Below are positions 1 through 7,820 of a DNA stretch of 7,820 nt, in pieces; the first letter of the stretch is position 1; every line of letters starts with the position of its first letter. Source of the stretch: Negativicutes bacterium (lineage in GTDB: Bacteria > Bacillota_C > Negativicutes > Sporomusales_B > JARLHX01); assembly GCA_031292035.1 (NCBI GenBank), contig JARLHX010000095.1, positions 1 to 7,820 of the forward strand, given 5' to 3'. The translations under genes and the position numbers were made by a program. The notes under the pieces were generated by a model. That model was not told the origin of the DNA and searched no databases. It saw only the letters and a program-made list of their open reading frames with translations.

Positions 1-758
1 AGGGTGTTATTAACCAGCACCGGACCACGGCTTCCAGGATTTACCCAACAATAGATTGCAGCGCCAGAGTTGTCGGCGATGACATTCTGAATGATGTTGG
101 CACTGTAAAAAACGGAACCGTTAAAATAATAATTGAAGGCACCGATGGCGGTGCCCTGGTTGCCTTGAATCGAATTGTTGGCAATCAAGATCGTTCCGAA
201 CATCGCGCTCATGATGATTCCGCCGGAATAGTTGCTTTGAATCAAGTTGGATCGAATGGCGGCGCCACAGACGCCGGTCAGATTCACAGCCGCGGTGCCG
301 TAATACAAGCAACCAGTAAAGCGGTTCTTTTCGATCACCGGCGAGCCGGACAAAACGTTGATACCGTTGCCGCAATTCACGATCACATTGGACCAAATGG
401 TGGGTGAAGAACTGGCAACGGATATCCCGGCGCCTGCATTGGTCAGGGTGAAACCCGAAAGCACCGCATTGGAGTTTTCGCCATTGTCAAAATACACGGC
501 AGCGGAATTTGCGGGAGGCTCAATTCTCGTCGCCGTAGGACCGGCGACGCTCGCCAGGTAAATGCCTTTGCCGGCAAAATTCACCGATTCATTGTAAACT
601 CCGGGCGACACCAGCACGGTATCGCCGGTGGCGCCGGCATTTATCGCGTATTGAATCGAAGGGCAATCCGCCGGCACCCGCAATGTCCGGGCAGTAGCAA
701 CCGATGACGCCATGATCAGAATCAAAAAGCAACCCAGATGAAAAATGAAAATCCGCAT
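1..758 (-). CDS. Secreted right-handed beta-helix repeat protein, N-terminal part (C-terminus beyond the window)
   Basis: An open frame of 252 codons begins with ATG at 758 and stays open to the left edge, so the protein is partial. Residues 1-23 form a signal peptide: a basic start, a hydrophobic stretch around FLILIM, and an ATA cleavage site before Arg24. The mature part opens with DCPSIQYAINAGATGDTVLV and SPGVYNESV, the usual entry into a pectate-lyase-like parallel beta-helix. It then shows irregular Asn-rich coils (SNVIVN, SNLIQSN, NNSIQGN, ANIIQN) that fit stacked rungs with an Asn ladder. Such proteins are exported and usually bind or cleave polysaccharide or serve as surface adhesins. 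No catalytic residues can be assigned here, so only the fold is claimed. Start choice: CTCC at 767-770 reads GGAG on the minus strand, 8 nt before ATG. The gene diverges from the large gene at 1079. A C-terminal sorting tag may lie outside the window. Confidence 0.85.
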   Translation of the reverse strand, partial: MRIFIFHLGCFLILIMASSVATARTLRVPADCPSIQYAINAGATGDTVLVSPGVYNESVNFAGKGIYLASVAGPTATRIEPPANSAAVYFDNGENSNAVLSGFTLTNAGAGISVASSSPTIWSNVIVNCGNGINVLSGSPVIEKNRFTGCLYYGTAAVNLTGVCGAAIRSNLIQSNYSGGIIMSAMFGTILIANNSIQGNQGTAIGAFNYYFNGSVFYSANIIQNVIADNSGAAIYCWVNPGSRGPVLVNNT

Positions 759-766
759 AATTAAAA

Positions 767-770
767 CTCC
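767..770 (-). promoter_or_regulatory. Ribosome binding site of the beta-helix gene
   Basis: On the minus strand this reads GGAG, with an 8-nt A/T-rich spacer before the ATG at 758. It is the best Shine-Dalgarno match in the window and fixes the start directly before the signal peptide. Confidence 0.6.
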
Positions 771-997
771 ATAGCCGACAGATGATGATATGGACTCCAA
801 CTGGAGGTATGTTTGATTTCGTGCCCACGACTAGCATGGGCGGCCCTCATGATTTTCTTCCTCCTCCACAGATTGGCAAGAACTTTTTCCCTGGCTCCCT
901 CTGCTTTACTCCGGCGCACGGGCAATTTGTCGCCGAATTTGCCGTGTCTCCCCCTTTTCCATGTCGTCCGAGGCACCTATTTCGTGTGCCACTCAGT

Positions 998-1034
998 ATG
1001 GATTGTTGTCACGGAGTGCACCATCACAATCCAT
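998..1034. promoter_or_regulatory. 9-bp perfect inverted repeat upstream of the large fusion gene
   Basis: ATGGATTGT (998-1006) and ACAATCCAT (1026-1034) are exact reverse complements with a 19-nt spacer that contains the palindrome GTGCAC. The right arm ends 44 bases before the ATG at 1079. Arms about 28 bp apart centre to centre would suit a dimeric regulator contacting one face of the helix over nearly three turns; a hairpin in the leader RNA is the alternative. No regulator can be assigned. Confidence 0.4.
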
Positions 1035-1044
1035 CATTTTCCTT

Positions 1045-1061
1045 AAGTTCGTAAGAACCTT
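1045..1061 (+). other. Small leader hairpin with GTAA tetraloop
   Basis: GTTC-GTAA-GAAC (1047-1058) folds into a 4-bp stem closed by a GNRA-type loop. It extends to AAGTTC/GAAC(c)TT if one bulged C is allowed. It sits 17 bases before the ATG at 1079, where a ribosome site would be expected, and no Shine-Dalgarno sequence is present. A role in translation is possible, but a stem this short may be chance. Confidence 0.25.
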
Positions 1062-1078
1062 GCCGATAGAAATTTAGG

Positions 1079-4000
1079 ATGCTGGCCATTCCGCCGGAAT
1101 CTGTCCCACAAGACAAATTGAAAAAAATCATGGCCACGACTAAGCGCGACCAAGCGGTTTCGCTGGTCAAACTCAACACCTCGGAAACAACGAATCGCCT
1201 GAGCATCGAGATTGGTGATAACGAAGAAGTCGAGGAGGACCTTGAAGGATTGGGGATTGAGGAAGTTCGGAAGGTCAAAGACAAGCGGCGCTTTATGATC
1301 CGAAGCCAACAGGTCATCAAGGTTAATCGGGCGTTCGGTCAAAAAAAACTCTGCGACAGTTTGAGCTTCACAGCGGGCCATGCGTGTTCGTTTGGCTGCA
1401 CATATTGTTATGTGCCACCGATGTTGGCGCGAAATAAACGACTCATCGCGATCAAGAACAAGACCGGAGGCAACTGCGAAGGGTTTATTGTGGATATCGC
1501 GGATGCACCGGCCAGGGCTCGTGAATTTTTGACCATTGGCGGACACGGAAAATCACCCAAATACACTGACCCCAAAGACAAACGCGTGATTTTCGCCAGC
1601 CCGCTGGTAGACGTTGCCGGGACAATGGATCAGGTGGAGACCACGGTTGCCATCTGCCTGGAGATTCTGCAATTAACAAACTGGCAAATCCGCCTGCTGT
1701 CCAAAAGCTCGCTCTTGAAGGAAGTTGCAAAAGGAATCCCCGAAGTGTTCCAAGAAAGGATGATTTTTGGTTTGTCGACAGGTACGTTTGACCCGGTACT
1801 TGCCGGAGCAATTGAAAAGGGGACGTCGAGCGTGACCAAACGATTGGAAACTTTGCACTGGCTGCAGGAACATGATTTTCGAACATTTGCGATGTTGTGC
1901 CCAATCCTGCCGCAGAAGGACTTTCATGCATTCGCCCGACAGTTTGATAGGATGCAGGTATTCAATGAATGCGAGCACGTCTGGGCTGAGGCGCTCAACG
2001 CCAGGGGTGGCTCAATGGCCGCGACCATCGCCGCCCTCCGCCAGGCTGGGCGGCAACACGAGGCGGACCTAATTGTCAGGATCGATGCAGACGACGAGGC
2101 ATGGCAAGATTACGCGGAACAAGCGTTCGTGGCGCTGACTAGATTCATCCCACCCGAAAAACTCCGCTTTTTGCAATACACCACCCGGAAAGCCGAATTT
2201 GAGCGATGGGAAAAACATCAGGAATCGGGGGCCGTGTTGTTGGACGTCACTCTGGATAGCCGGGAGGAGGCCGTTCTTGCGGATTGCGATGCAAAGATCC
2301 TGACCAACCTCCAAGGTTTCAGCGACGTCGTGACAGCCCTGAAAACAATCAAGGACCTCAAGCTTTATCGGTCTTATGGGACCTTTGAGGAGTTTTGCCT
2401 CTCAAAATACGATTTCGCACGGGCGCATGGCCACCGTTTGGTCAAGGCGGCCGAGGTTGTTCAAGCTCTAACACAAATCCAGAAAAAGGGGAAAACGTCT
2501 CCAGATGGAGACATTTTATTGCCCACCACGGAGGCCCAAGCTCGAGAACTGGCAAAAATCTTAGACCCAAAACAACAACTGGAAGTGCTGACGCTGGCAT
2601 TTAAAAAAGCCAAGAGCGCTGGCAAGGTACCGCTGAATTCCAAATTCATTCAACTTGCGGCGGCGGAAATCACCAACGGCAGCGCCAAGCAGGGAACCAC
2701 CACAGCGACATATTACGTTCCCAAGACCTATACCACCGACTTGCATGTATTCCTTGGCTGGGTGGCCAATTTGAAGACACTGGCCAAGCAAAAGGACAAC
2801 AAATCCATGGTTGAGCTGACGCGGCAATTGGAAACGGTCGAGCAGGAACAGGCTATTCTACCGAGAGACCCACAAATTTATTACGCCGGATGGAAGGCAA
2901 CGGAACGGGAACGACCATCGGTCAGCGCGGATTTTCCAGACATGGTCAAATTCACTGCCAGTGATATACAGCATGGATGGATGAACAACGAGTCGGAACA
3001 TGACGTCGAACACGACGGCCAGATATTTAGCCCATTGGGATTGTATTATTGGTTACGGTTTGCCGGGCACCCGGAAATTCAAGACGATGTGGTGTTGCAA
3101 ATATGGCCGGAAGATACGGAACGGGTCGCAAAAAAACACCGGCAGATCCTGGGAGAACCCGACGAGAAGACAGATGTTCAATTGATGCGGCGATGCTTGC
3201 GGCTGAAACTTCAAGAGCACCAGTATCTCGTGAAAAAACTCATGGCGACCGGCGACAAACTGTTGGTGGCTGATTTCACCGCAAATCCACACGGTGATGC
3301 GCTCTTCTGGGGGATGATGGAGCGGGACGGTCAGTGGATCGGCCAGAATTGGTTGGGGCGGATTTGGATGGAATTGCGGGCAGAAAGGCCAGTACCCGAC
3401 CAGAAAAGGATTGATGCAGATCGTCAGCTGATTGACAAAGCCAATCGGATTGAGCGGCTCCGGCTCTATGGCAAGAACACCGGAAAGACTGACGAAGACG
3501 AAGTGAAAAACGACCTCGCATACTGGACCGACATCGACCTTTGGGTTGCCGAACGCCGCAGCCTCACCAAACGCCGGCCTTTGAAAATCAACGTGACAAG
3601 CAACGCCAAAGCCGATGAATTCAATTTTCAGAAACTTTCTCCCATGCTGCTGGGGAAAGTTCAGTGCTACGGTGATGTGACGGCTATGTCACCCGAAGTT
3701 GCCTGGCAATATTCCAAATGTTATGCCACGGTCAGATCCGAGGCTGGCAAGGATGTTGCCACGAAAGTCCCTTACTTCACCATGGATGACCAAAAGCGGC
3801 TTCAGCCCACCAAAGCGTGGTTTGACTGGCGGGATGAAAATTACCAGAGACCGCAGTTTGCGCCGGACCATCCGGATTTTGACCCGAACAAGGACAAAAT
3901 TCGCCGGGCATTTCCAAAACATTCTTCGGTGGCATTCTGGTACTGGAACGGAGAGGTTATTACTGACCGTACAATGGCGCGGCAAAAGATTTACGCACCA

Positions 4001-5356
4001 TTGTATATCAAGGCGGTGCAAGCAACAGCAGAGTTCAAACGGCTGCGCGAAATATTTGAAGGTCGCGGAGATGAACCAGGGCGGGATCTGTTGATTTTTG
4101 ATTTCGACGGCTATGACTGGACCGGGTTGGGCATGCAGCCGGAAGATTGCATCCAAGACGTCCACTCTTTTGGGCACGGCATGTGTTGCGCATTCCTGCT
4201 TCTGGGCATTGATCCGACCACCCTCACGATTGAACAAAAGTCAGAGTCACCGGTTCCCGACAATGCCCCGCTTCTCCTCGATTGGGAGTCAAGATATGAC
4301 AGCTACCCAAAGTGGAACCATAAACCCAATGCAAAACGCGTGGCGAAAAATTCTGTTGGACAAAAGATCAAGATCGCCCAGCCGAAAATGAGCGACTCGG
4401 AAAAGGCCAACATCGAGAAGTTAACCCTGAAGATACTTGGTCTTGACCCCGCAAAAGCCACGAAGGGTTGGGGCACCGCCCATCCCCCGGGCCGGTATGC
4501 CCAAACAGTCATCCGCGTCAGCATGGATGCAGCCCATCGCTTTTCGCAGGACGGGAAGCCGATTGGCGTAAAAATTTACAAGGCAACGCCAGACGGCCGT
4601 AGCGCCTCGGTTCCCATGCTCGATTTTCACCGCAATAAACGAACCCGGCTGCCTGGGCTGAAAGAAAACAAGCACGTGCAGGACGTGCTTTATGCCGGCA
4701 TTGAAAAAGGCGAAGACGGAAAACATTATCATTTCCTGATTCAGCACTGGGTCGAAGGCGAGACCCTTGAAGACAGGCTGAACGGGAAGACAATGAAAGG
4801 TAAGAGGAAGGCTGGATTGAGCGGCGAAGCCATGGGGATCATGGACGATTTATTCAACGAACTTATCATTCCATTGTGGTCGGCAAAAACAGCGTACTGG
4901 GATGTTCGAATATCGAACTACGTTTTTACGCCAGAAGGCCAGACGATAATGATCGATTCCGATACGCTCGGAGCTAATGTTATGGAAATCCTCTATTACC
5001 CGGGCATCTACAAAAGACGGAATAAAAGCTCCCAAACGGCCATGCTGCGCTATATGCACATGGCAGGTGAAATCGCGGTGCAATGCCTCAGCTCTAATGG
5101 AGGCAACCACACAACCTCGATTTATGAACAGGTTGAAGACCGGTTTGCGACCTATTTGGAGCCGGTGTTTGTAAGGCCATATCCTCTTGTACCTGACTGG
5201 CTAAAAAAATCAAAAGCAGCGTATTCGGAATTCCGGAAGGAATTTGTGCGATTGCTGAGTCCAGGCAGCTCTCCCGTGGACTTGGCGGGCAGGCAGCTTA
5301 AAAAAATGCAAAGGCCTGACAGCAAAAAGAAACCTAAAATCACCGACCATTTGTGA
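1079..5356 (+). CDS. 1425-residue multidomain protein: SPL-like radical SAM + HTH-like helical region + NADAR-like + DUF6939-like + protein-kinase-like
   Basis: Residues 95-390 are a radical SAM domain: Cys103, Cys107 and Cys110 (CSFGCTYC) are placed to bind the [4Fe-4S] cluster, followed by LLSKSSLL (206-213), FGLSTGT (230-236), LCPILP (273-278) and a RFLQYTT end. This pattern resembles the spore photoproduct lyase/Rv2578c group. Residues 391-532 are helical (LYRSYGTFEEFCLSKYDFAR at 429-448, then LLPTTEAQARELAKI), like regions beside ParB and phage/plasmid regulators, and probably bind DNA. Residues 621-770 match NADAR (MRRCLRLKL at 703, LMATGD at 721, HGDALFWG at 738, NWLGRIWMELR at 757). 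Residues 835-1045 look DUF6939-like (SPEVAWQYSK at 871, RQKIYAPLY at 968, FDFDGYD at 1007). Residues 1130-1400 are kinase-like: VKIYK with Lys1165, HWVEGETL (1223), WDVRISN with Asp1275 and Asn1280, IDSD with Asp1293. No signal peptide or membrane segment is seen, so it is cytoplasmic. The frame is intact with a TAG just upstream in frame. ATG at 1079 is the longest start; ATG at 1130 (MATTKRDQ) is also possible, and neither has a clear ribosome site. The overall function is unknown. Confidence 0.88.
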   Translation: MLAIPPESVPQDKLKKIMATTKRDQAVSLVKLNTSETTNRLSIEIGDNEEVEEDLEGLGIEEVRKVKDKRRFMIRSQQVIKVNRAFGQKKLCDSLSFTAGHACSFGCTYCYVPPMLARNKRLIAIKNKTGGNCEGFIVDIADAPARAREFLTIGGHGKSPKYTDPKDKRVIFASPLVDVAGTMDQVETTVAICLEILQLTNWQIRLLSKSSLLKEVAKGIPEVFQERMIFGLSTGTFDPVLAGAIEKGTSSVTKRLETLHWLQEHDFRTFAMLCPILPQKDFHAFARQFDRMQVFNECEHVWAEALNARGGSMAATIAALRQAGRQHEADLIVRIDADDEAWQDYAEQAFVALTRFIPPEKLRFLQYTTRKAEFERWEKHQESGAVLLDVTLDSREEAVLADCDAKILTNLQGFSDVVTALKTIKDLKLYRSYGTFEEFCLSKYDFARAHGHRLVKAAEVVQALTQIQKKGKTSPDGDILLPTTEAQARELAKILDPKQQLEVLTLAFKKAKSAGKVPLNSKFIQLAAAEITNGSAKQGTTTATYYVPKTYTTDLHVFLGWVANLKTLAKQKDNKSMVELTRQLETVEQEQAILPRDPQIYYAGWKATERERPSVSADFPDMVKFTASDIQHGWMNNESEHDVEHDGQIFSPLGLYYWLRFAGHPEIQDDVVLQIWPEDTERVAKKHRQILGEPDEKTDVQLMRRCLRLKLQEHQYLVKKLMATGDKLLVADFTANPHGDALFWGMMERDGQWIGQNWLGRIWMELRAERPVPDQKRIDADRQLIDKANRIERLRLYGKNTGKTDEDEVKNDLAYWTDIDLWVAERRSLTKRRPLKINVTSNAKADEFNFQKLSPMLLGKVQCYGDVTAMSPEVAWQYSKCYATVRSEAGKDVATKVPYFTMDDQKRLQPTKAWFDWRDENYQRPQFAPDHPDFDPNKDKIRRAFPKHSSVAFWYWNGEVITDRTMARQKIYAPLYIKAVQATAEFKRLREIFEGRGDEPGRDLLIFDFDGYDWTGLGMQPEDCIQDVHSFGHGMCCAFLLLGIDPTTLTIEQKSESPVPDNAPLLLDWESRYDSYPKWNHKPNAKRVAKNSVGQKIKIAQPKMSDSEKANIEKLTLKILGLDPAKATKGWGTAHPPGRYAQTVIRVSMDAAHRFSQDGKPIGVKIYKATPDGRSASVPMLDFHRNKRTRLPGLKENKHVQDVLYAGIEKGEDGKHYHFLIQHWVEGETLEDRLNGKTMKGKRKAGLSGEAMGIMDDLFNELIIPLWSAKTAYWDVRISNYVFTPEGQTIMIDSDTLGANVMEILYYPGIYKRRNKSSQTAMLRYMHMAGEIAVQCLSSNGGNHTTSIYEQVEDRFATYLEPVFVRPYPLVPDWLKKSKAAYSEFRKEFVRLLSPGSSPVDLAGRQLKKMQRPDSKKKPKITDHL

Positions 5357-5383
5357 TTGGCACCAAACTCGACCAGGTGCCAA
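5357..5383. terminator. 8-bp hairpin between convergent genes, possible terminator
   Basis: TTGGCACC (5357-5364) and GGTGCCAA (5376-5383) are perfectly complementary around an 11-nt loop, and the structure begins on the base right after the TGA of the large gene. No T-run follows on either strand, so it is not a textbook intrinsic terminator. It may still stabilise the mRNA 3' end or help stop both convergent transcripts. The bases to 5449 hold only a G-rich stretch (5388-5413) and no gene. Confidence 0.4.
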
Positions 5384-5449
5384 GTCGCGGGCGGACTTGG
5401 GGCGGTCGGAGGAATTGTCAGCCAGCTGTCCAGTTTTATCTCCGCTTAA

Positions 5450-6814
5450 TCAGGGAGGAAAGCACTGCCACACATCGTGCATCTGCGATTCGATGTGGTC
5501 CTGGCTGAGATTCAACCAGCGCCCGCCTTTTGTGCTCATGCGTCCCACGCCGCATATGAATTTTTGGCGGAACCGATCGAGGCTCATTTGCCTCTCCGCA
5601 CCAGAAAACACCAGTTGTCGGAGCGCAGTGAAAATGTTGTAAGCCAAAATCGCGGACTGGAAACGCCCTTCGCCCGCATCCCCGGCGGATACGGCAGGAA
5701 ATGCGCCCTGCGCCAACCGTTCGATGTCGTGAATTGCGCATGCGACCGCAAAATCGCCCTTGAGAAATCGTTGAAATAGAAGCCCGTCAATTGCTTCGAC
5801 GTTCGTCTGGAGTCGTGCGTATTCGTAGTCGTCGTTACCCTTTCTCTTCCGGAAGAGGAACTCCTTGACCATCCCCATGTCGCCTCCTTTGTGTGACTTC
5901 GCCCAGGCAAATGCGCCGTCACCTAGAGAACCTTCTGCAGACCAGACAAGTCGAGATTCACCGGCCATCTCCCGCAGTGGCGCTTCCTCGGGCGGCATGC
6001 CCAAAATATATCCAATGTTCTTCTTATACGTTTTCCAGTGGCGGCCATCAGGCTTGGTCTTGTAAACGAATTCTCGTTTTTGCACCCATGATAGAACAGC
6101 TGGGGCGCAACATTCCGGACCTGCGCGCAGCAGGCGTGAAACCCCAAATTCATCGATCATCTCCAGGGCGGCGGTCAATCGAGCTATTAGATCAGCCGCG
6201 TGGCGACACATGCCGCCGGACAGCACCAAGTCGGCCTCCCGCCAAATGCACACCACGCGGTTTGGAAAACCGTGTGATGGTGAATTGGATCGCCAAGTTA
6301 AACGTGTGGTCGCGGGTTCTGGGACGATTTCGACATCAATAGTTGCATGTTTCAAACGGCCCACGTTCTCTGCCTCGCATTTGCTTCGGATATTCTTCAC
6401 CGATTTCCCCAGGACCATTTGCCAAGGATCTCTTCCTAACGGTGCTTTTATAAAGCTACGGCCTAGTTCACGTAAAAACCTCTGGATCCGACTGCGGCCT
6501 GGCGCTTTCCGCCCGAAGGCTTCTTCCACGCAAGCGTCCCTACGCATCAAATCAAGGTCTTGAATGCAGTCCGCACCGGCGAGTTGCAAGGAGAGAAGAT
6601 ACTCAACCAGGTCCGAAGCATCCGATGATGTGGTCTGGGTTGGCTCAGTGGATGTCGACTCGTCACTCTGGCCAGTCCAATAGTCGCCCACCGCTCTTGC
6701 CAAGCCCAGCCCCCGGTAAGCACGAAAGATGGCAATCAGCCCCACCTGCGGACTGTGGTCGGCTTTCGTTGTGCCGGTCTCGACCCGAAAACGGCAGGAC
6801 GATTTTTTGGGCAT
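5450..6814 (-). CDS. IS1380-like transposase relative with replaced catalytic residues
   Basis: This is a 454-residue protein, a normal length for IS1380 transposases. The N-terminal part (VGLIAIF...GLGLARAVGDYW, residues 24-46, then SDLVEYLLSLQLAGADCIQDLDLMR and SRIQRFLREL) has the order of IS1380 proteins. The C-terminal GRFQSAILAYNIFTALRQL (383-401) followed by CGVGRMSTKGGRWLNL (421-436) matches the AYNLL and GR..RHGRR.L.L ends of the family. The DDE positions look lost: LDxD reads TID160-V-E162, the usual RADSG reads RAG232PE, and the R-G-x-x-E site reads KGDFA356. These placements are by eye. No terminal inverted repeats or target duplication could be seen on either side. An ATG at 6904 is in frame, but the extra 30 residues are basic and unlike the family; ATG at 6814 with MPKK and a weak GGA 6 nt upstream is preferred. 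Either a decayed transposase or a domesticated one is possible. The absence of stops in 454 codons slightly favours recent decay or retained use. Confidence 0.7.
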   Translation of the reverse strand: MPKKSSCRFRVETGTTKADHSPQVGLIAIFRAYRGLGLARAVGDYWTGQSDESTSTEPTQTTSSDASDLVEYLLSLQLAGADCIQDLDLMRRDACVEEAFGRKAPGRSRIQRFLRELGRSFIKAPLGRDPWQMVLGKSVKNIRSKCEAENVGRLKHATIDVEIVPEPATTRLTWRSNSPSHGFPNRVVCIWREADLVLSGGMCRHAADLIARLTAALEMIDEFGVSRLLRAGPECCAPAVLSWVQKREFVYKTKPDGRHWKTYKKNIGYILGMPPEEAPLREMAGESRLVWSAEGSLGDGAFAWAKSHKGGDMGMVKEFLFRKRKGNDDYEYARLQTNVEAIDGLLFQRFLKGDFAVACAIHDIERLAQGAFPAVSAGDAGEGRFQSAILAYNIFTALRQLVFSGAERQMSLDRFRQKFICGVGRMSTKGGRWLNLSQDHIESQMHDVWQCFPP

Positions 6815-7081
6815 AAGATTCCAGAGTAAAGCTCGCAAAAACGAGCTAGAGCAATCTCGCACTAAAAAACGGGAACGCCAGTATTTTCGGCCCGATTCCC
6901 TCAAAATTTGGATGTTTGAAATATCGATCCCGACATGCTGCTACCGCACAGAATGGAAGGAAGAAAAACTGATGATTAAATCGCGGATATACATCGACGG
7001 AAGATCCGAGACGCAACAACTCCAAGAATGGAGAGGGGTGTCTCGCGATGCTGATGGCGTTCGCCAAAGAAAAACTGCGAA
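6815..7081. other. Intergenic region between transposase-like and winged-helix genes
   Basis: No convincing gene is seen. A 6-bp hairpin AGCTCG/CGAGCT lies at 6830-6847 in the leader of the minus-strand gene, with an A-rich loop. The 11-mer AAGAAAAACTG occurs twice, at 6961-6971 and 7067-7077. A possible short frame from ATG 6972 (MIKSRIYIDGRS, 37 codons, ending at 7085 and overlapping the GTG at 7082) has no recognisable relatives and is not called. Confidence 0.35.
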
Positions 7082-7603
7082 GTGAGAATGCATTTTACCG
7101 ACCATATGACACGCGCCGAGCGGATCGCCCGCATTGGCGAATTGCTCGCGAAAGGGGTCACCCTCATGCTGGCGCGCGAAGCCCGGGATAAGGCGGAGTC
7201 GAAGAGTGTGGAAGTCTTGGAACAAAGCTCAAAACCGGCCAAGACTGCCTTTTGCACCGAGCATGCTACTCCGGAGAACGAGGCGGAAACCGCCATACTG
7301 GCCTATTTGAGACGCGTCGGATCCGCCTCGCCGCGGGACATCCAACAAGCGCTGGACCTGTCAAAGGCGACCGCGTTCCGTCGTTTGCAACGAATGACCA
7401 AAACAGGTTTGGTCGTAAGATCTGGCCAGACCTCAGCGATTCGTTATCTGGCGATGGGGTTTGCGGGAAATCAAATCGAAGCCGCGATTGTCCGCCTCAA
7501 CGCTTTCGACCCGCCAACCACGCGCCGTTTCATGGGCGATGACGTATTGCACGGCAATACGCTCAATTTCCTCGTCGCGCACCATCGGAGCAATTTGAGG
7601 TGA
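7082..7603 (+). CDS. Winged-helix DNA-binding protein, C-terminus probably chimeric
   Basis: This is a 173-residue frame. Residues 9-33 (MTRAERIARIGELLAKGVTL onward) form a helix typical of small accessory proteins of mobile elements. Residues 68-124 are a winged helix-turn-helix: ETAILAYLRRVG, then SPRDIQQALDLSKATAFRRL with the recognition helix around SKATAFRRLQRM, and the wing VVRSGQTSAIRYLA. It should bind DNA as a transcriptional regulator; target and ligand are unknown. After RYLA (residue 124, near base 7453) the frame runs antisense through the helicase gene, so its last 49 residues are probably not native. Starts: GTG 7082, ATG 7088 (weak GAAGTGAG upstream) and ATG 7106; the last begins exactly at the conserved helix. 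The N-terminal family assignment is from memory. Confidence 0.6.
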   Translation: MRMHFTDHMTRAERIARIGELLAKGVTLMLAREARDKAESKSVEVLEQSSKPAKTAFCTEHATPENEAETAILAYLRRVGSASPRDIQQALDLSKATAFRRLQRMTKTGLVVRSGQTSAIRYLAMGFAGNQIEAAIVRLNAFDPPTTRRFMGDDVLHGNTLNFLVAHHRSNLR

Positions 7604-7820
7604 GGTGCGTTCGGGATGGGGCAGGACCCAGGCACGACCAACATGCTGGACGTCACCAATCATGCATTCGGCTTCTTGACGCAGTTCGGCGGTACGACGT
7701 TCCAATCGGGCGTTCAATTCGTCGAGCTTGTCCTCGACCTTTTTTAGGTTTGCCGCCAGCAATGGATCGTCCGGGCCACTCGCCTGCTCGTGAATTTCGG
7801 CCATGCGCATGTTCTGCCGG
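7433..7820 (-). CDS. C-terminal fragment of SNF2-type helicase with truncated DUF3883 domain
   Basis: The frame is open to the right edge, so the helicase core lies outside the window. From the edge it reads RQNMRMAEIHEQ, then a likely coiled coil (NLKKVEDKLDELNARLERR), then AWVLPHPE, then MVRDEEIERIAVQYVIAHE and TARGWRVESVEADNRGFDLI, the characteristic first half of DUF3883 at the end of SNF2/DEAD-box helicases. The domain should continue through an IEVKGR-type strand and a T.NE motif. Instead, after SRKPH (His codon at 7454-7456) come six unrelated residues and a TGA at 7433. The gene is therefore truncated at its 3' end and may be non-functional. Helicases of this type occur in phage-defence loci such as DISARM (DrmD-like proteins), which hints at a former defence gene, but the fragment alone cannot show it. 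Confidence 0.65.
   Translation of the reverse strand, partial: RQNMRMAEIHEQASGPDDPLLAANLKKVEDKLDELNARLERRTAELRQEAECMIGDVQHVGRAWVLPHPERTSPQIAPMVRDEEIERIAVQYVIAHETARGWRVESVEADNRGFDLISRKPHRQITNR
7445..7460. other. Rearrangement junction between winged-helix and helicase sequences
   Basis: To the left the plus strand reads winged-helix sequence up to RYLA; to the right the minus strand reads DUF3883 up to SRKPH. Both family resemblances end within a few bases of 7454, as expected for a breakpoint. I see no inverted repeat or target duplication at the join. A misassembled metagenomic contig would look the same. Confidence 0.5.

Follow-up and report, generated by a model that had tools for sequence, protein, structure and literature searches.

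What kind of protein joins a radical S-adenosylmethionine (radical SAM) module, a helix-turn-helix (HTH)-like module, a NADAR domain, a DUF6939 domain and a protein kinase in one chain, and is such a chain a natural enzyme or an accident of sequence? The question is raised by a stretch of 7,820 nucleotides from a Negativicutes bacterium (contig JARLHX010000095.1 of assembly GCA_031292035.1, positions 1 to 7,820), the whole of which is called the window here. It holds, in the open reading frame (ORF) listing and by comparison with relatives, a five-module coding frame of 1425 amino acids at 1079..5356 on the forward strand (+), the strand of all module coordinates below. Our analysis reveals that this fusion is a conserved natural multi-domain enzyme, whose parts occur as separable genes in relatives. 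The architecture is firm, and for the function we infer a nucleic-acid target, an ADP-ribose substrate and phosphorylation as the means of control.

The frame itself is real. As the initial annotation of this DNA had claimed, it runs without an internal stop across all 1425 codons, and when the window was resampled 200 times with a first-order Markov model the longest stop-free run was 381 codons, which excludes a chance open frame. Compared with the related gene at locus L002, the differences at codon positions 1/2/3 are 0.32/0.23/0.56 over the 470 codons of the radical SAM and HTH-like parts and 0.41/0.35/0.58 over the 564 codons of the DUF6939 and kinase parts; since position 2 differs least and position 3 most, the frame is under selection at the protein level. 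An assembly chimera is rejected because other contigs encode the same fusion. A chance fusion of separate genes, named at the outset as one outcome that would overturn the annotation, did not occur either, the homologues having kept the fusion.

The search for full-length homologues gave a set of ten relatives (P0002-P0011), and the module order proved common to relatives. Three of them (P0002, P0003 and P0004), on other contigs, carry all five modules in order, and P0008 is a further fused copy that starts at window residue 156 and thus lacks about 155 N-terminal residues. The others show how the parts come and go: P0005-P0007 have no NADAR, P0009 and P0010 have neither radical SAM nor NADAR, and P0011 combines radical SAM with DUF3987. 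Simpler arrangements also exist, namely radical SAM-HTH at L050, HTH-NADAR at L046, DUF6939-kinase at L041, and a single NADAR at L049 or radical SAM at L048, while L051 (G109:C166) holds radical SAM and HTH pieces which are not of the P0011 type. At L041 the radical SAM, HTH and DUF6939-kinase parts are consecutive genes of the same strand, arranged as the domains are in the window. Identity between the radical SAM protein of this operon and the fused type is about 22%, from which it follows that this set of parts probably came together with two radical SAM subfamilies. As to distribution, a match to one or other module of A2 is present in 71 of the 320 genomes sampled from the order, and the A2 search of viral contigs gave no relatives among its 19 pattern matches.

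The module most relevant to an ADP-ribose substrate is DUF6939 (residues 785-1062; 3431..4264), delimited by family profiles and fold prediction. Pfam at E<=1 finds no DUF6939 match with the whole window protein, and the excised module scores 0.17 against PF22075 (12 of 27 bits). Its membership is transitive: PF22075 matches 36 of the 38 members of the family alignment at E<=10 (best 4.4e-11), PF22397 matches ten of them at the same threshold (best 7.2e-4), and the A3 profile search returned 72 proteins, many bearing PF22075. A stand-alone homologue of 250 amino acids in a metagenome-assembled genome (MAG) of Verrucomicrobia, L004, matches DUF6939 at 7.6e-5 (22.9 of 27 bits) and also, at 0.0019, the DarT1-NADAR family. 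On this profile evidence residues 785-1062 are assigned to DUF6939. The slice is predicted to take a NADAR-like fold, and a NADAR-like motif, E873-x3-Q877-x2-K880 (3695..3718), keeps its E, Q and K in 38/38 aligned members, with the spacing seen in YbiA in a printed alignment. In addition, the DFDGYD motif (4100..4117) offers candidate acidic residues of the last strand, D1008, D1010 and D1013 being kept in 37, 38 and 35 of the 38 members, respectively. Judged by these alignments, the better-kept ADP-ribose-type site is that of DUF6939 and not that of the canonical NADAR.

Some candidates around this module did not hold. W914-x3-R918 was dropped as the counterpart of the NADAR W89/R93 pair because W is found in 28/38 and R in 27/38 members, and eight matches from PDB sequence profiles at E<=10 (seven designed TIM barrels and complement C5) were judged spurious. 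When 387 genomes of the phylum were searched with PF22075 none matched; this search is insensitive, since it missed G002, where the domain is present. A further search found a DUF6939 match in 2/387 genomes of the phylum, with up to six candidates scored per genome. The stand-alone DUF6939 genes of L004 and L005 have as neighbours, in both MAGs, a conserved gene of 220-250 amino acids and an HD-domain-like gene, for which the L004 match is 0.0043 and below cut-off; the L005 copy is split into two frames.

The canonical YbiA-type NADAR module (residues 613-780; 2915..3418) is recognized both by Pfam and by a module profile. PF08719 matches residues 646-769 of the window protein at 7.5e-10 (39.7 bits against a cut-off of 35.1), and a profile of eight NADAR modules (the window, the four other fused copies, L046, L049 and P0053) matches YbiA (2b3w) at 2.3e-19. 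The signatures reported initially are present too, LMATGD, FWG and NWLGRIWMELR starting at residues 721, 743 and 757. Of the catalytic residues, the Glu of the E-x6-K motif (E43/E88-type) is Glu in seven of the eight aligned NADARs, P0002-P0004 and P0008 included, and Leu in the window alone (L653; 3035..3037), whose codon may contain a sequencing error. The K50/K95 position is Arg in 8/8 (R660 in the window), and D732 is kept in 8/8. At the position of the Glu in the last strand of YbiA there is Glu in L046, L049 and P0053, and Ala or Met in the five fused copies (A731 in the window). The role of E88 in NADAR has been described, and K95R of the C7 NADAR kept its activity in vitro and lost rescue (PMC11543638). 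Thus the family assignment stands, and catalysis by the window copy is doubtful because Leu replaces the E43/E88-type Glu and the fused copies have Ala or Met at the YbiA Glu position; from its residues, this NADAR may be weak or non-catalytic.

The radical SAM module (residues about 78-392; 1310..2254) was located by Pfam, NCBIfam and a PDB profile. Its CxxxCxxC cluster motif (1385..1408) has Cys103/107/110 exactly as first described and is kept in 8/8 aligned rows. Pfam Radical_SAM (PF04055) matches residues 100-282 of the window protein at 3.7e-4, below cut-off, and relatives P0011, L041 and L042 above it; the NCBIfam PA0069 model reaches 8.4e-7 (28.3 of 360 bits), below cut-off. Taken together, these profile matches place the module in the radical SAM superfamily near the PA0069/spore photoproduct lyase (SPL) group. 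As regards the SPL type cited before, the best PDB match of the alignment profile is indeed spore photoproduct lyase (8.3e-4), but no SPL model of the NCBIfam scan, equivalogs included, matches the window protein at E<=1, and Pfam SPL matches P0011 at 0.0056, below cut-off; by profile comparison, SPL is no more than the nearest solved relative. On the whole window protein at E<=1 Pfam reports NADAR, Radical_SAM and ribosomal L11, the last of which (0.065) was judged a chance match, as was DrmC (0.029), the sole PADLOC result for this protein. PADLOC and PHROGs gave no informative name.

The C-terminal module (residues about 1066-1400; 4274..5278) has its left edge at the start of several stand-alone kinase genes. 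Pfam finds no kinase match in the window copy, and among 15 aligned members Pkinase matches one (9.5e-4) and ABC1 two (best 0.028); the alignment profile matches PknA at 1.4e-5. The kinase pattern of the initial annotation was confirmed at its residues: the catalytic loop D1275-x-R-x-x-N1280 with the metal-site D1293 (4901..4957), together with the beta3 lysine K1165 (4571-4573), gives a K, D, N and D invariant in 15/15. Structures were predicted for two of the slices that the annotation had delimited, giving a NADAR-like fold for DUF6939, as said above, and a protein-kinase fold for this one, whose model has 1265 Foldseek matches, with kinases among the 50 matches listed. Slices without such folds, the other outcome that would have overturned the annotation, were not seen among the two modelled. 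By its predicted fold and its catalytic Lys/Asp/Asn/Asp, the module belongs to the protein-kinase superfamily. In a 13-row tree of the DUF6939-kinase part, a weakly supported branch (63/38) separates the NADAR-bearing rows from the rest; long branches were flagged in this tree. The kinase P0088 gave no match in plasmids.

The HTH-like module (residues 393-545; 2255..2713) is recognized through stand-alone relatives, some of which adjoin a radical SAM gene. It matches separate proteins of about 170-425 amino acids (stop to stop) in Verrucomicrobiota genomes, being found in 24 of the 27 loci L014-L040 and adjoined by a radical SAM frame in five of them (L015, L021, L023, L024 and L040), and also parts of plasmid proteins, mostly cyanobacterial among the matches listed. 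DUF3102 gives a weak match in 3/14 members (best 0.024), the PDB profile search had no match of note, and no curated family was firmly matched in the family and PDB profile searches. The five modules named initially are real to varying degree, the HTH-like one being weak and without a curated family.

Where do such genes reside? Directly 3' of the fusion gene of the window lies an IS1380-like transposase gene (5450-6904, reverse strand), a frame of 484 amino acids with two weak stretches of IS1380 transposase (51.4 of 180 bits), which is a divergent or degraded insertion sequence. To the left is a beta-helix gene (3-800, reverse strand). Further right, a winged-HTH frame (MarR/CARF-HTH-like; 7082-7603, forward strand) overlaps on the other strand the end of a NOV_C/HmaA-like gene (7433-7819, reverse strand), whose protein end is like the defence helicase HmaA and has NOV_C matched to profile position 39 of 91, hence possibly truncated; these neighbours were named by family scan. 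No tRNA was found in the window, Rfam at gathering thresholds gave nothing in the window, L002 or L041, and a search of stretches of the window, and of sequence to the left of the L002 gene, gave no attachment-site remnants of note. Among the relatives, L002 has an MbeA-type relaxase (1.4e-32, 113.5 of 500 bits) and L003 a Pfam Relaxase match (0.021); the two loci are 86% identical over 4.7 kb from the relaxase onwards, in an alignment that stops at a tRNA-Gly remnant, the 30 bases of the 3' end of the gene (L002:21359-21388). These 30 bases are also part of an intact tRNA-Gly(TCC) in L043. The L002 stretch contains a weak recombinase-like gene (0.015, below cut-off), the same stretch of L003 has no integrase match, and a strong phage-integrase gene (L002:21512-22789, 3.4e-16) lies just past the tRNA-Gly remnant, which suggests two elements stacked at one attachment site. 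At L041 an integrase lies upstream of the operon (5.3e-10, above cut-off). The L002/L003 relatives are thus on a probable mobile element ending at tRNA-Gly, and integrative mobilizable elements of Verrucomicrobiota appear to carry the close relatives as cargo.

As to single modules, the HTH-NADAR gene of L046 is in a same-strand run with a Y-family polymerase and a superfamily 1 (SF1) helicase, with an MmeI-type restriction-modification gene nearby. The radical SAM relative of L047 adjoins a gene of AAA_25, a family with a role in replication, and at L048 a weak Toprim_2 (0.005, below cut-off) and AAA_25 are the second and third genes away from radical SAM. Two further observations concern the gene content of these loci. 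Between the fusion gene and the relaxase, L002 carries tandem paralogues of 520 amino acids (13348-14910 and 15056-16618, forward strand), 67% identical, the first of which, the copy scanned, has no family match. At L041 a gene of 331 amino acids without Pfam match (217-1212, reverse strand) starts four bases past DUF6939-kinase and has a short EWDFRSVT stretch in common with an L002 gene near an integrase.

What, then, might the chain do? The reading we favour, if with less than even confidence, is element-borne nucleic-acid maintenance or counter-modification under kinase control; it agrees with what single modules have as neighbours, genes of replication and repair, and with the ADP-ribose evidence. 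The HTH-like part would hold the chain in place on the element's nucleic acid. A radical-based change would be made or reversed by the SPL-like radical SAM part, and the DUF6939 part, with its distant NADAR fold, would recognize and probably hydrolyse an adduct or derivative of the ADP-ribose type, in some members with the help of the second, canonical NADAR. The kinase part would switch the assembly or signal to a partner by phosphorylation, and the element's nucleic acid would in this way be repaired, or shielded from lesions and from attack of the ADP-ribosylation type. As to the window copy, its active domain would probably be DUF6939, with the canonical NADAR left as a binding or vestigial domain. 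The initial annotation had proposed a self-contained nucleic-acid repair or conflict effector; this stays conjectural, and the neighbourhood supports maintenance of mobile-element DNA at least equally. A more specific form, possible though rather doubtful, is that DUF6939 forms one more, so far undescribed branch of the NADAR superfamily, joined by mobile elements to kinase, radical SAM and DNA-binding part, as an operon or in one chain, into a machine for surveillance of nucleic-acid lesions or ADP-ribosylation, in which ADP-ribose handling gates phosphorylation.

Several points weigh against this picture. The canonical NADAR of the window, by its alignment, is without the E43-type Glu, and the radical SAM and NADAR activities are dispensable, as P0009 and P0010 do without both. 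The L041 operon, given the divergence of its radical SAM protein, would be a parallel and not a direct ancestor. The predicted DUF6939 model matches YbiA in Foldseek only at E 1.5, one hhalign run of DUF6939 against YbiA-type NADARs gave a probability of 0.3%, and a second, rough run with stop-to-stop frames as rows gave 0.0-0.1%, an unrelated HTH alignment reaching up to 1.1%. The HTH call by profile is weak. On the side of mobility, no integrase or relaxase was found among the 5 ORFs scanned of the 34 in the window, where the IS1380-like gene alone was seen; within the L002/L003 element the recombinase match is weak; only one attachment end was found; and the strong L002 integrase lies outside the tRNA remnant.

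An anti-phage or inter-element defence effector, in which the ADP-ribose domains sense a signal and release the kinase (or radical SAM) part to stop the cell or the invader, seems to us unlikely. It would agree with the best NCBIfam model of the window NADAR, the DS32_2 anti-phage NADAR (9.6e-17), with the stronger match of the L046 NADAR to this model (1.7e-29), and with the MmeI-type gene of L046; a HipA-related kinase is needed for DS-6 defence (PMC13092281). Yet these scores, 60.7 and 102.2 bits, are far below the cut-off of 240, and PADLOC offers DrmC alone. Moreover, the system is rare: the kinase profile at E<=0.001 matches at least 15 of 313 genomes of the order, a lower bound as the carrier G240 is absent from the answer, and the three known carriers alone match strongly.

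Counter-defence, which has been proposed for phage NADARs and in which NADAR and DUF6939 would strip ADP-ribosylation marks or destroy ADP-ribose signals that immune systems of the host (DarT-type or NAD-based) have set, is likewise something we would not expect. Matches to DUF6939 do occur in viruses: tblastn with the L004 domain against 50,697 phage records gave 50 matches at E<=1e-3, of which 30 records are named Erwinia and 8 Dickeya, those of them that were listed being about 260 kb (30 of the 50 matches were listed, many weak and some records duplicated), and giant-virus models and the plasmid RPME01 match as well. Phages of medium and jumbo size often have NADARs (PMC9503650). Nevertheless, counter-defence leaves the radical SAM, HTH-like and kinase parts unexplained, PF22397 matched none of ten carrier or relative genomes (DarT itself being outside that search), and the phage neighbours in the records opened are almost all hypothetical. 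No ADP-ribosyltransferase family appeared among the results for the 5/34 ORFs scanned in the window, which ends 2.5 kb downstream. Among the named neighbours, DUF6939 of Klebsiella phage is accompanied by an ATPase and a DNA methyltransferase, and in Yersinia phage fHe-Yen9-02 (L095) it lies about 5 kb from a gene annotated as RNA 2'-phosphotransferase, an RNA-repair enzyme that depends on NAD (PMC9503650).

A biosynthetic modification of nucleic acid or nucleotides, with radical SAM and glycosidase-like folds building or trimming an unusual base and with an intermediate or carrier as the target of the kinase, is very improbable: the NADAR superfamily includes the N-glycosidase of a riboflavin intermediate (TIGR02464 on the window protein, 1.4e-5, below the NCBIfam cut-off) and a radical SAM relative adjoins an AAA_25 ATPase gene, but the neighbours scanned in the window, L002 and L041 included no recognized biosynthetic gene, and the kinase has a predicted protein-kinase fold.

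If maintenance or counter-modification borne by the element is the true function, a single chain would link radical SAM chemistry with ADP-ribose handling and a protein kinase, and DUF6939, from large phages, giant viruses and mobile elements, would become a testable ADP-ribose enzyme. What is more, the modular gain and loss (with or without NADAR, with or without radical SAM, or as a split operon) gives natural constructs for dissecting each part. A literature search, with most subscription journals outside its reach, found no protein with NADAR and radical SAM described, as judged by title and abstract, no paper naming DUF6939 in its full text and no description of the five-module architecture. 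The parts are known families; within the reach of the searches, what is new is how they are assembled and where DUF6939 is proposed to belong.

The window protein resembles known systems in some features and departs from them in others. Its residues 646-769 pass the Pfam cut-off of the NADAR family (PF08719; YbiA, DarT1-associated), whose described bacterial form is a free-standing single domain (PMC11543638), whereas the window has a canonical copy without the E43-type Glu plus a second, NADAR-like domain. The DS-32 NADAR anti-phage protein (NF053876) is the top NCBIfam model for its NADAR, but with 60.7 of 240 bits and a different architecture. The module at 785-1062 belongs to DUF6939 (PF22075) by transitive profile evidence, but it is longer than the 167-position Pfam model and joined to a kinase. 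With the SPL-like group (PA0069, Rv2578c, rSAM mobile pair B), which we take to be COG1533, the radical SAM module has CxxxCxxC and profile similarity in common, yet all NCBIfam scores are far under the cut-offs and here the module is fused to four others. Finally, the kinase shares with the Ser/Thr protein kinases PknA, PknB and PKR the predicted fold and the invariant K, D, N and D; where such kinases usually have H/Y-x-D at the catalytic loop and DFG at the metal site, it has WD and IDSD.

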